In this document: one piece after another, positions 8,330-38,213 of the stretch | How the letters are laid out: each line of letters starts with the position of its first letter | Position numbering within the stretch: position 1 is the stretch's first letter | NCBI GenBank assembly: GCA_021106765.1 | Contig: JAIOTO010000046.1 | Coordinates: 1-38,700, forward strand | Length of the DNA: 38,700 bases | DNA from: Methanosarcinaceae archaeon | GTDB lineage: Archaea; Halobacteriota; Methanosarcinia; Methanosarcinales; Methanosarcinaceae | Direction of reading: 5' to 3' | Notes under the pieces: generated by a model | Seen by the model: the letters and a program-made list of their open reading frames with translations, nothing else | The model's database searches: none | Told to the model about the DNA's origin: nothing | Program-made: the position numbers and the translations under genes

Positions 8330-8808
8330 TTGTTCTTAACGATGGACAATAAAAGTATGAAATCCAAAGAGTGATGACGGAAAAAGTACATACATCACAT
8401 TGCAGACACCTGTGAGATCCAGGAGATACAGGTGCTGACGATCATGCAAACGAAGTAACATAGGAATTATTCGAGGAAAAGGTGTACCATCGCACGCATG
8501 GTCACATTTGGTTCTTTTACCCTTTTTTTACCTTTTTAATTTAAGCAACACAACATGATACACGTAGTAGCACTTATCATACGTCACTGAGTGATATTGA
8601 TCCTGAATTTGATAGTTCTGACCGAAGATCATGTCCACTCTTTGCCAGAAATATCCGTGTAGATCTGTTTTAATCCGTATATGAAAAATAGAGATCATAT
8701 TCAGTCAACGTAGCATAAGCTGTCAAACTTGAGCAACAGCATGCAACTGATCGAATAACCCCTCCAGTACTGTTGTTATCATGGCAATGATATCTGCACT
8801 TAAGAACG
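8330..8808. other. Non-coding stretch
   Basis: No supported gene. It holds a hairpin with arms CACCTGT (8407-8413) and ACAGGTG (8428-8434), and T-rich runs at about 8518-8540 that could end the preceding transcript. From about 8660 the sequence resembles the region upstream of the second regulator copy (from about 9870), marking the left edge of a duplication. Confidence 0.5.
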
Positions 8809-8845
8809 TATATATAGTTATGCTGCTATGAAGTAGCAGTACTGC
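8765..8845 (+). promoter_or_regulatory. Promoter and palindromic operators of regulator copy 1
   Basis: TATATATA at 8809-8816. The palindrome GCAGTACTGC (8836-8845) lies on the predicted transcript start. The inverted repeat CTGCTA-5 nt-TAGCAG (8823-8839) overlaps it. A further palindrome CAGTACTG (8765-8772) lies upstream. The same half-site recurs in front of copy 2, suggesting autoregulation by the encoded winged-helix protein. Confidence 0.5.
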
Positions 8846-8874
8846 CTATATATCCAATGCCAGAGGCTAACACA

Positions 8875-9222
8875 ATGATAGACTTTGCCTGCAAGGAATT
8901 CAAAATGAGTGATGTGATCAAATGCGCTCTGAACCTTACCAGAGCTGATCTGCAAGTCACAGAATATTTTCTGACCCAATGCAATGAATGGTGCAATACG
9001 GATTGCATCGCAAAGAGAACTGGACTGGAACTCTCAACGATACAACGATCGGTCAAGAAACTTACCGATAAGGACATACTGATCAAATCACAGAAGAACC
9101 TTGACGGTGGAGGGTATTCATATCTCTACATGATCAAAGACAAGGAAGAACTCAAGAAAATGATCATGGATATTGTTTGCGGATGGATGAACAAGGTCGA
9201 ACGGGAACTTGAGGCATGGTAA
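8875..9222 (+). CDS. Cysteine-rich winged-helix regulator, copy 1
   Basis: A small cytoplasmic DNA-binding protein of 115 residues with a MarR/TrmB-like winged helix. The recognition region is TGLELSTIQRSVKKLTDKDIL and the wing is LDGGGYSYLYMI. The start is taken at the ATG equivalent to that of copy 2; the upstream ATG 8857 lies outside the conserved coding region. It carries cysteines at 6, 17, 36, 40 and 44, the last three as CX3CX3C, with one more near the C-terminus. That is unusual in this family and suggests metal, Fe-S or thiol sensing (inference). The ATG of a vestigial frame overlaps the TAA stop. It is nearly identical to the gene at 10073 over residues 13-92. Confidence 0.85.
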   Translation: MIDFACKEFKMSDVIKCALNLTRADLQVTEYFLTQCNEWCNTDCIAKRTGLELSTIQRSVKKLTDKDILIKSQKNLDGGGYSYLYMIKDKEELKKMIMDIVCGWMNKVERELEAW

Positions 9223-9254
9223 TGCTCAAGATTATATCATACATTTGTCACTAA
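8875..9254 (+). repeat. Left copy of the regulator duplication
   Basis: Direct repeat of 10073-10450 and of the upstream promoter DNA (about 8690-8874 against 9895-10072). The coding parts are almost identical at base level and the flanks more diverged. Homology runs past the stop codon into the beginning of the next gene: MLKIISYICH then a stop here (9222-9254), against MLKITPYIWL continuing in copy 2. The vestige shows that copy 1 once carried the same downstream gene start. Confidence 0.75.
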
Positions 9255-9740: not shown

Positions 9741-10003
9741 TGAAAAAGTAATATAGACAAATGAATGGAATGAATATAGCATAAACAATATTTTCACTAT
9801 TTATTTTTTTTAGTTGAGCCTTAGATATAGCAGGCATTCAACTCCGTAGAAGGTGAGTGTATCTATATAGATCCGGGTCTGTAATGGAAATAAGAATTCA
9901 GTCAACGTTAGCATAGGTTGTCAAACTTAAGCACCAACATACAGCCGATCGGATGACACATACATTACTGCAGTAATAATAGCAAAGTATCAGTACTTAA
10001 TAA
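9741..10003. other. Non-coding stretch with a dispersed repeat
   Basis: No gene seen. Bases 9816-9886 resemble 15208-15270 upstream of the helicase (core TAGCAGGCA.TCAACTCC). From about 9870 the sequence is the promoter duplication shared with copy 1. A T-rich run (9799-9811) may end the preceding transcript. Confidence 0.5.
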
Positions 10004-10038
10004 CATATATATACGCATACTGCCGTGAAGTAGCAGTA
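9964..10038 (+). promoter_or_regulatory. Promoter and palindromic operators of regulator copy 2
   Basis: A perfect 14-bp palindrome ATTACTGCAGTAAT (9964-9977), a CAGTACT site (9991-9997), TATATATA (10006-10013) and the inverted repeat TACTGC-9 nt-GCAGTA (10018-10038) near the predicted transcript start. The half-sites match those at copy 1, so both copies are likely controlled by the same protein. Confidence 0.5.
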
Positions 10039-10072
10039 CTGTTAATATATTCAATACCAGGGGTTAAACACA

Positions 10073-10420
10073 ATGATAGACTTTGCCTGCAAGGAATTCA
10101 AGATCACTGATGTGATCAAATGCGCCCTGAACCTTACCAGAGCTGATCTGCAGGTCACAGAATACTTCCTGACCCAATGCAATGAATGGTGCAATACAGA
10201 TTGCATCGCAAAGAGAACTGGACTGGAACTCTCAACGATACAACGATCGGTCAAGAAACTTACTGATAAGGACATACTGATCAAATCACAGAAGAACCTT
10301 GACGGTGGAGGATATTCATACCTCTACATGATCAAAGACAAGGAAGAAATCAAGAAAATGATCATGGATATTGTTCACAGTTGGGTGGAAAATATAGAAC
10401 AGGAAATGGAGGGCTGGTGA
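10073..10420 (+). CDS. Cysteine-rich winged-helix regulator, copy 2
   Basis: 115 residues and the same architecture as the gene at 8875. Residues 13-92 are identical or almost so, while both ends have diverged (KITDV against KMSDV; HSWVENIEQEMEGW against CGWMNKVERELEAW). It keeps C6, C17, C36, C40 and C44. Its stop overlaps the ATG of the membrane ferredoxin as TGATG, so the two are translationally coupled. This pairing suggests that the regulator controls an electron-transfer protein. The sharply conserved middle suggests recent duplication or gene conversion. Confidence 0.87.
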   Translation: MIDFACKEFKITDVIKCALNLTRADLQVTEYFLTQCNEWCNTDCIAKRTGLELSTIQRSVKKLTDKDILIKSQKNLDGGGYSYLYMIKDKEEIKKMIMDIVHSWVENIEQEMEGW

Positions 10421-11037
10421 TGCTCAAGATCACACCATATATCTGGTTGATCGTGTTCATTGTATCCATCGGAGGACTGTGGTTCCCCATACTTGGTTAT
10501 GTGATGGCAGTTGTAATGCTCACCCTCATGACCACCGCAGTATTCCGGGGACGCTGGTTCTGCGGGAACCTGTGCCCACGCGGGAGTCTGTATGACTTCA
10601 CCGTCAGCAAAATGTCACAGAACAGGAATGTCCCGTCGATCCTGTCAAGCTACCGTGTCAGGATCCCCGTATTCGTCGTGACGATGGGGTTCATGATATA
10701 CAGATTGACGACCGCCCTGGGCACCCAGAACACCTTTGACAACATCGGCACGGTCCTTGCTTCCATGTGTGTGACAATGACCATCATCTCCGTATCCATG
10801 GGTACATACCTCAAACCCCGTGCCTGGTGTGCTATTTGTCCAATGGGTACGTTGCAGCGGGTACTGGGAGGTAGTAAATATCAGCTGAAGATGGCTCATG
10901 ATAAATGCATAGACTGCAAAATCTGCGAGAAGAAATGCCCGATGGACCTGGAGGTAAGGGATATCGGGAATAACCCGGATTGCATTAAATGCGGACGGTG
11001 TGTTGTGGCCTGTCCGAAGGATGCGCTGGAGTTCTAA
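10420..11037 (+). CDS. NapH/MauN-type membrane polyferredoxin
   Basis: 205 residues. About four membrane helices are interrupted by two cytoplasmic cysteine loops, CGNLCPRG and CAICPMG, characteristic of the NapH/NosR family. Two 4Fe-4S motifs follow at the C-terminus (CIDCKICEKKCPM and CIKCGRCVVACPK). It probably moves electrons between a membrane carrier and soluble ferredoxin-type partners. No partner oxidoreductase is in the window. The ATG at 10420 is chosen because it overlaps the regulator stop, although the frame is open further upstream. It is GC-richer than the equivalent gene at 9261 and complete compared with it. Confidence 0.85.
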   Translation: MLKITPYIWLIVFIVSIGGLWFPILGYVMAVVMLTLMTTAVFRGRWFCGNLCPRGSLYDFTVSKMSQNRNVPSILSSYRVRIPVFVVTMGFMIYRLTTALGTQNTFDNIGTVLASMCVTMTIISVSMGTYLKPRAWCAICPMGTLQRVLGGSKYQLKMAHDKCIDCKICEKKCPMDLEVRDIGNNPDCIKCGRCVVACPKDALEF

Positions 11038-21757: not shown

Positions 21758-22186
21758 TTATCTCCTTGGCTTCTCTTTTCGGCCAATGACCATTTCTCGC
21801 AAGCACACATTGTTCACCGCAGTGACCTTGAAACGAACACCAGGGATATCACCCTTTGCACCGCCCATTCGACCACCAATACGTTCCACGGTTACTTCAT
21901 CGTGCTCATCGATGAAATTGATCGCACCATCACCAGGACAGAATGCCGTAGCTTGCCTACCATTCTTGATCAACTGTATCCTGACACATTTCCTGATAGC
22001 TGAGTTTGGCTGCTTTGCTTCAACTCCTACTTTCTCAAGAACAATTCCACGACCCTGTGGTGCTCCACCGAGCGGATCGGACTTAACGTTCAAACCAAGA
22101 GTACGTCGGTTATAGCGACTATCCTTCCATCTAGAATTCTGACGACCCCTTTTGAGTGTATTAGCTGCATATTTTCCATTTGGCAT
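21758..22186 (-). CDS. rps12: 30S ribosomal protein S12 (uS12)
   Basis: 142 residues, normal for archaea. Contains the decoding-centre segments [13 protein letters not shown] and [23 protein letters not shown]. It monitors codon-anticodon pairing. The ribosome site GGAGGAT is 7 bases before the ATG, and nusA ends 68 bases upstream. Confidence 0.98.
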
Positions 22187-22254: not shown

Positions 22255-22680
22255 TCACAATAAGACCACATCATCGATATTATGATGCCGCCCTACAACC
22301 ATATTTACCTTTTCGATGTTTTGACCATTGCGTCCTATTGCAAGTTCTTTGTCAGACCCCAATATCTCTACAAATGCGGTCTTTCTGCCACTTTTGTTCC
22401 TAACATCGATAGATTTTATGGATACTGTACCGAATGCATTCGTTATAAAGGTAACTGGATCGTCCTAATATTCGATCAATTCTATATGTTTGTCGATAGT
22501 CTTTTTTAAACTGTTGATGTGATCACCATGTCTGCCAATAGCAGCACCCATCTCGCCTGCTTTTACAATATAGATGATCTGTCCCTTATCGACTATACAA
22601 TCCTTGATCACAGCTCCGGTCATACTCTCAAACAGTGCTATATAACTTATAGCTTCTGCTGAAAGTTTGATCTCACTCAA
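22255..22680 (-). CDS. nusA: Archaeal NusA with an in-frame TAG
   Basis: The complete frame is 141 codons, the normal size of archaeal NusA, with TAG as codon 72 (22465-22467). KH1 lies before the TAG (GEMGAAIGRHGDHI) and KH2 after it (SDKELAIGRNGQNIEK), ending DDVVLL at TGA 22255-22257. The reading frame is unbroken apart from the TAG, and the KH2 part looks under normal constraint. The TAG follows ELIEY and precedes DDPVTFI, where relatives usually have Ser or a similar small residue. The start is taken as TTG 22680 (MSEIKLSAEA, the family N-terminus) behind GGGAG, 16 bases after the rpl30e stop. It binds RNA and influences transcript elongation or termination. UAG may be read as pyrrolysine; otherwise a 71-residue KH1 peptide is made. 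Confidence 0.88.
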
Positions 22681-22696
22681 AAAACGCAACTCCCTT

Positions 22697-22984
22697 TTAA
22701 ACAATATTCAACAAATTGGATTCGCCTACATCAATGATCGCCATCGTCGCAATGGTGAATGGCTTACCACATGCAGGTCCCAGTTCCACACTCGTACCCG
22801 GGTAATTAAAGATAGGTACATCTGTAGATCCGATCTGTTCTTTCACACTTTCGAGACAATTCGAAGCAATGACAACCATCTTTGCATCACCTTTTACCGC
22901 TGCATCAATAGAACGGTTAGCTCCGATTATTACTTCTCCCGTCCTGATAACTTTCAATAACGCTTTATCGACATTGATATCCAT
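22697..22984 (-). CDS. rpl30e: 50S ribosomal protein L30e
   Basis: 95 residues from the chosen ATG ([11 protein letters not shown]); TTG 22993 and ATG 22990 are possible earlier starts. Motifs: [18 protein letters not shown] and the RNA-contact segment [11 protein letters not shown] member of the L7Ae-like fold in the large subunit. It occupies the conserved place between rpoA2 and nusA. Confidence 0.95.
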
Positions 22985-23061
22985 TTGCATCAACCCATAT
23001 TATTTAAGATTTATATTCTAATAACTGATTCATTATATCTACTTTCTGGTCGTATCCAGGA

Positions 23062-37385: not shown

Positions 37386-38213
37386 CTATGTTTTTAACGA
37401 TATTTTGGTGAACTCTACCGGAACGTAGAGATTCCAATCCTTATTCAAAGTACTGGGGACTGATCTTTCAATGTACTTTGGGGCTTTTGGTTTATGTGCT
37501 TTGATCTTGTTCAATGATCCATCGCTTAGATGTTCATAGAACACAGAATGCTCACGTAATAATTCGAGTACAAAACCAACTTTGGCATAAAGATTTTTTT
37601 TGTTATACATGCCGAGAATGTCAATAATTTTATTAAAATCAAGTCCACTTAAAACACTGAGACTTTTGAGACATTCTTCCCATCCACCAGCATAATCTGG
37701 TCTGTCCACGCAATCGATAAAAGTGCGTTCTTTGCTGCTCACTTTCAGATCAGTATTACGGTATTTTTTTGATTCGATGCAAAATGAAATGTCGTTCGTA
37801 AAGACAGGCTTAAAATTGAGGTGCTGGTACTTAAAAGGATAAAAACGATCTGCGGGGAGGATCGTAATGTACACTTCGTTATAATGACTGTATGCTGATC
37901 CATAATATTCAAGAGCAGAGTGAAATCCAAGATAATAGCGATCCCTGATCTTACCTGCGATAATGAACTTATCTGAAATGTGTTTTGTTGGTTCTTCCAA
38001 TGGAGACAGGACCCCATATAGCCCCTTTCTGATCTTCTGAAGTTTTCCTTCTTCGAGCAGTTTGGCTGTATATTCGCCATAAATGTATTTTGGAATGAGT
38101 GCAGGACTGAGCGTCAGTTCAACGATCTCAAGAGCTGTTTTTTTAATTTCCCCGGATGTTACAACTTCCTTTTTAAGCAGATCTTTGTAAAGTCTGTCTC
38201 TTTTCCTGATCAT
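37386..38213 (-). CDS. AbiEi-like antitoxin/transcription regulator
   Basis: 275 residues. An N-terminal winged-helix region (LLKKEVVTSGEIKKTA... LLEEGKLQKIRKGLYGV) and the body with FHSALEYYGSAYS and the family signature SSKERTFIDCVDRPDYAGG. This fits AbiEi-family proteins, which repress and counter an AbiEii nucleotidyltransferase toxin. No AbiEii gene follows, so it is an orphan here. It ends in TAG, the only such stop seen in a full gene of the window; read-through would add 43 codons to the next TGA. TATA-like CTTTAAAAT lies about 30 bases before the ATG, with no ribosome site. Confidence 0.8.
   Translation of the reverse strand: MIRKRDRLYKDLLKKEVVTSGEIKKTALEIVELTLSPALIPKYIYGEYTAKLLEEGKLQKIRKGLYGVLSPLEEPTKHISDKFIIAGKIRDRYYLGFHSALEYYGSAYSHYNEVYITILPADRFYPFKYQHLNFKPVFTNDISFCIESKKYRNTDLKVSSKERTFIDCVDRPDYAGGWEECLKSLSVLSGLDFNKIIDILGMYNKKNLYAKVGFVLELLREHSVFYEHLSDGSLNKIKAHKPKAPKYIERSVPSTLNKDWNLYVPVEFTKISLKT

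Follow-up and report, generated by a model that had tools for sequence, protein, structure and literature searches.

An in-frame TAG between the two KH domains of nusA in a Methanosarcinaceae metagenome assembly: pyrrolysine codon or base-level defect?

Structure of the nusA locus

The window (the whole 38,700-nucleotide stretch analysed) carries, on its minus strand, an archaeal nusA gene with a TAG codon inside its reading frame. The features of the locus are as follows.

22255-22680, minus strand: nusA (archaeal NusA, two KH domains), 141 codons plus stop, TTG start, TGA stop
22465-22467, minus strand: in-frame TAG, codon 72, at the KH1/KH2 junction of nusA
22468-22680, minus strand: KH1 part of nusA, 71 codons 5' of the TAG
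22258-22464, minus strand: KH2 part of nusA, 69 codons 3' of the TAG, GXXG motif intact (AIGRNGQNI)
22697-22993, minus strand: rpl30e, intact, upstream neighbour of nusA
21758-22186, minus strand: rps12, intact, downstream neighbour of nusA

Read from 22680 to 22255, the gene is a single frame broken once, by the TAG at 22467-22465. The read-through product matches the NCBIfam family nusA_arch (TIGR01952) over its full length (residues 3-140; 154.7 bits, cut-off 74.35) and aligns end to end (4-140) with the NusA homologue 2cxc; in this alignment the TAG falls at the KH1/KH2 junction and pairs with a Ser of 'EYSSD'. The 69 coding codons 3' of the TAG contain no further stop and no frameshift. 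A chance adjacency of two ORFs is ruled out, because the family and structure matches are continuous through the TAG; this reading is also countered by the lack of an in-frame ATG in the first 54 codons past it. The frames of rpl30e, rps12 and rps7, which lies downstream with rps12, are all open. The description of the locus in the original prediction is thus borne out: an archaeal nusA frame of 141 codons whose sole interruption is TAG 22465-22467, with KH1 before the TAG, an intact KH2 (LAIGRNGQNI) after it in the same frame, and a conserved place between rpl30e and rps12.

A second intact nusA, a possibility raised beforehand, was sought across the whole genome (1.74 Mb in 134 contigs, completeness about 95%) and not found. 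The contig is 38.7 kb long, with its other long genes open, and the TAG is 16 kb away from the closer end; nusA is among only five stringent in-frame-TAG candidates in the 1.55 Mb scanned. The earlier observation that the other core genes of the window end in TAA or TGA does not extend to every gene: a non-core ORF of 275 aa (37386-38213, minus strand) ends in TAG; this ORF has no NCBIfam family match, and its next in-frame TAA or TGA lies 43 codons past the TAG. Also within the window, a segment of about 550 bases is directly repeated (8699-9247 and 9896-10445; 87% identical).

Codon 72 in relatives and the evolution of KH2

A comparison of codon 72 with close relatives, proposed with the original prediction, returned a sense codon in every relative read. 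The codon is TCN (Ser) in 28 of 29 relatives and GCA (Ala) in the remaining one; across 80 named genomes, a set that overlaps the 29, the residue is Ser, Thr, Asn or Ala. Of the 105 other family genomes that yielded a nusA, not one carries an internal stop in it. Sharing of the TAG between species, the mark of conserved pyrrolysine (Pyl) sites of the mtmB/mtbB/mttB kind, was thus not found at this codon. Several near relatives use TCG here, so that a single C-to-A change accounts for the TAG. The nusA TAG is private to this genome and occupies a tolerant position.

The mean identity of KH2 to the relatives is 0.55, compared with 0.71 among the relatives themselves; for KH1 the corresponding values are 0.65 and 0.71. 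Five of 23 conserved KH2 columns carry private changes. These identity counts suggested neutral decay of KH2, a reading that was ruled out when branch lengths were re-estimated on a fixed tree for six segments and the rate of each segment in this lineage was expressed relative to the overall rate. On this branch, KH2 has a relative rate of 1.49 (branch length 0.42 aa/site), compared with 1.33, 1.38, 1.19 and 1.27 on other long branches, and KH1 a relative rate of 1.04, about equal to that of neighbouring genes. Since the KH2 rate is near those of the other long branches, KH2 evolves mildly faster than expected, yet is clearly constrained and far below neutrality. The question whether KH2 evolves neutrally, also raised beforehand, is thus answered in favour of purifying selection. 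It follows that the TAG is recent, or is read through, or is not real, and that a long-standing KH1-only form is unlikely.

Pyrrolysine decoding capacity of the genome

The premise that UAG can be read as pyrrolysine in this organism holds. A search for pylT/S/B/C/D found a complete, intact cluster, which rules out an absence of pyl genes: a tRNA-Pyl with anticodon CUA is followed on contig C81 by intact pylS, pylB, pylC and pylD, all of which score over their curated cut-offs. The expected in-frame TAG is present in mttB (C90:1143) and, once, in mtbB (C119). Only 21 of 812 long ORFs use TAG as terminator, and these are typically followed within a short distance by a TAA or TGA (median 10 codons). 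One aRF1 was found over the cut-off. Given the scarcity of TAG as terminator and the intact pyl operon, a real UAG in nusA would be decodable.

Two further observations concern the same gene set. The pylB gene (L035:4604-5665) itself ends in TAG, with the pylC start directly after it, and read-through would add about 42 residues. An mtmB homologue (C131:824-2173; PF05369, 529.6 bits) lacks any in-frame TAG and may therefore be a non-Pyl relative of MtmB.

Intragenic stops of all three types and other signs of assembly defects

As a genome-wide control, we searched 1.55 of the 1.74 Mb for stops of all three types that have coding signal on both sides in the same frame, using a coding model trained on the 812 long ORFs. 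Six non-canonical intragenic TAGs were found: in nusA, gyrA, rad50, a rimI-like acetyltransferase (C121:5838), a PAS histidine kinase (C14:2935) and a surface protein (C15:13652), surface-protein assignments being based on coding signal only. If TAG is a sense codon here, the last three would be further Pyl candidates.

The other two stops were found in comparable settings. TAA interrupts the E subunit of the A-type ATP synthase (C49:204; spanned by PF01991, intact in 13 relatives), a membrane H+-pyrophosphatase (C57:9779; spanned by PF03030) and a DUF7286 protein, and rad50 is broken twice in one frame, by a TAA and by a TAG (C65:2859 and 3387). In purF (C83:5852, mid-contig), TGA replaces the conserved Arg of 'EYIYFA(R)PDS', and the gene is intact in 15 of 15 relatives. 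These TAA and TGA interruptions are beyond explanation by pyrrolysine. The resulting ratio of TAG, TAA and TGA is 6:4:1, counts that are small, compared with 0.44:0.33:0.24 expected from random single substitutions at this codon usage; the probability of at least 6 TAG among 11, for so few cases, is 0.34. No excess of intragenic TAG is seen in these few cases, and the ratio fits random substitution. The argument that TAG enrichment proves a Pyl code was consequently rejected, as six TAGs are unimpressive once TAA and TGA are counted alike.

The assembly shows signs of base-level defects of other kinds as well. Frameshifts that split Pfam domains between two frames are present in ftsY (C110:1851), ilvB (C30:12049) and gdhA (C73:5778); automatic calling returned 116 frameshifts, many of them operon junctions, and the split-domain check was applied to these three genes. 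The gyrA TAG (C10:17198, near a contig end) reads AGG in the overlapping end of contig C129 (C129:12452-12904). Over 453 bases the two gyrA copies show 11 mismatches, which alter 7 residues, and it is the C10 copy that departs from conserved GyrA residues. Further contig-end overlaps have 93-98% identity; those that differ mainly at third codon positions point to mixed strains, and those that differ evenly over codon positions point to error. Exact 127-base ends are common to many contigs, a mark of de Bruijn assembly, and most of the proven defects are no more than a few kb away from a contig end. Thus, conserved genes are broken in this metagenome assembly irrespective of stop type.

Origin of the nusA TAG

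We regard it as probable, by a narrow measure, that the nusA TAG is a base-level defect of this metagenome-assembled genome, either a consensus error or a minor-strain allele. Under this explanation, an error, or the entry of a minor-strain allele into the consensus, would have put TAG at codon 72; the main nusA of the organism would have an ordinary sense codon there, probably TCG (Ser), and full-length NusA would be made in the usual way. The arguments for a defect are the TAA and TGA nonsense codons and frameshifts in conserved, partly essential genes of the same assembly, the gyrA TAG that a second contig contradicts, the lack of a TAG excess, and a nusA TAG that is private and a single change away from TCG. 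Because stray stops of all three kinds occur alongside frame breaks in core genes, we rate a defect no less likely than a NusA with pyrrolysine, and we infer that the nusA TAG belongs to this noisy background. From the five non-TAG cases, noise would be expected to yield about four TAG cases, compared with the six seen, which on that basis alone puts the chance that any one TAG is noise near two thirds. Four points weigh against a defect. The nusA TAG is mid-contig, somewhat unlike most of the proven defects; the five private changes at the 23 conserved KH2 columns would not be caused by a lone recent error; the genome, with TAG depleted as terminator and its pyl operon intact, could decode a real UAG; and the nonsense cases counted are few.

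The main competing explanation, to which we give appreciable credence while doubting it on balance, is that the UAG is real and recent and that tRNA-Pyl (CUA) inserts pyrrolysine at residue 72 to give full-length NusA, as a neutral rather than a selected change. TCG would have mutated to TAG at a tolerant linker, and competition from aRF1 would yield some KH1-only product. This would be consistent with the intact pylT-S-B-C-D cluster, the in-frame TAGs of mttB and mtbB, the rarity of TAG as terminator, the constraint on KH2, the single copy of nusA, the tolerance of the junction and the intragenic TAGs of the rimI-like, histidine kinase and surface protein genes. Moreover, Pyl insertion does not require a cis element, its outcome being set by competition with termination (PMC8211752, PMC9499178), and some transposases and Thg1 are known to contain Pyl besides the methylamine methyltransferases (PMC8211752; see also PMC9499178). 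Against it stand the lack of any TAG excess over TAA and TGA in this assembly, the gyrA and rad50 TAGs, which make two of the six look like noise, and the absence of the nusA TAG from every relative. The stronger statement, that the only NusA of this organism carries pyrrolysine at the KH1/KH2 junction and depends on read-through, with a KH1-only by-product when Pyl-tRNA is short, we likewise consider possible but doubtful. The original prediction of a pyrrolysine-containing or read-through-dependent NusA therefore retains its premises, namely the pyl operon, a single nusA and a constrained KH2; the reading itself is not established, and error is better supported.

It is very unlikely that the TAG is a true terminator, with the lineage making a KH1-only NusA and KH2 decaying. 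The lowered identities of KH2 and, less so, KH1 to the relatives and the five changed KH2 columns are what such decay might leave, but the KH2 rate of 1.49 is not far from those of the other long branches (1.19-1.38) and falls far short of neutrality, and KH2 retains 69 codons without a second stop or frameshift and an intact GXXG motif. Least credible of all, to the point of near-dismissal, is a selected switch at UAG 72 that links transcription elongation to the supply of pyrrolysine or methylamine, or that programmes NusA to be made in two forms: what speaks for it is the presence of pyl genes and methylamine methyltransferases in the genome, while the nusA TAG is kept in no other family genome, selection for TAG has left no sign and a genome-wide TAG excess is absent. 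The earlier suggestion of a tie between transcription elongation and Pyl supply gained nothing in support from the analysis, and that of two forms, one of them KH1-only, gained little, given the constraint on KH2.

If real, the TAG would make a universal transcription factor need the 22nd amino acid for its full length, and would be strong evidence that a pyl-bearing archaeon can use TAG as an ordinary sense codon. Under the preferred reading, a base-level defect, it illustrates that an in-frame TAG can be misleading when it is seen in only one metagenome assembly; before any TAG is called pyrrolysine, the TAA and TGA interruptions of that genome need to be counted as a control.

Comparison with known systems

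The gene resembles other archaeal NusA (TIGR01952; 2cxc, 2cy1) in its full-length match with two KH domains and its conserved operon place, and differs from them in the in-frame TAG at the domain junction. No report of a TAG in nusA came up in the literature searches made. An archaeal genetic code in which all TAG codons are pyrrolysine was reportedly described by Kivenson and colleagues in 2025. The low use of TAG as terminator and the TAGs inside ordinary genes are what such a code would predict; without an enrichment of intragenic TAG relative to the other two stops, the pattern does not single that code out.

As in mttB, mtbB and mtmB, where UAG is read as Pyl, the nusA TAG is flanked by coding sequence on both sides. 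In contrast to those genes, in which Pyl is catalytic and conserved across species, nusA has Ser at codon 72 in most relatives. A neutral origin has been argued for single TAGs (PMC3639795). The closest parallel is the Pyl-containing Thg1 (tRNA-His guanylyltransferase) of some Methanosarcinales (Heinemann et al. 2009, as cited in PMC8211752, PMC2933860). The two cases have in common one in-frame TAG in a gene unrelated to methylamine metabolism, a pyl-bearing methanogen and an explanation by neutral change; unlike the published Thg1, the nusA TAG comes from one metagenome assembly only, in which other nonsense errors occur. If the nusA UAG is real, it would add another case to this known kind, and a notable one given that nusA is a universal gene.
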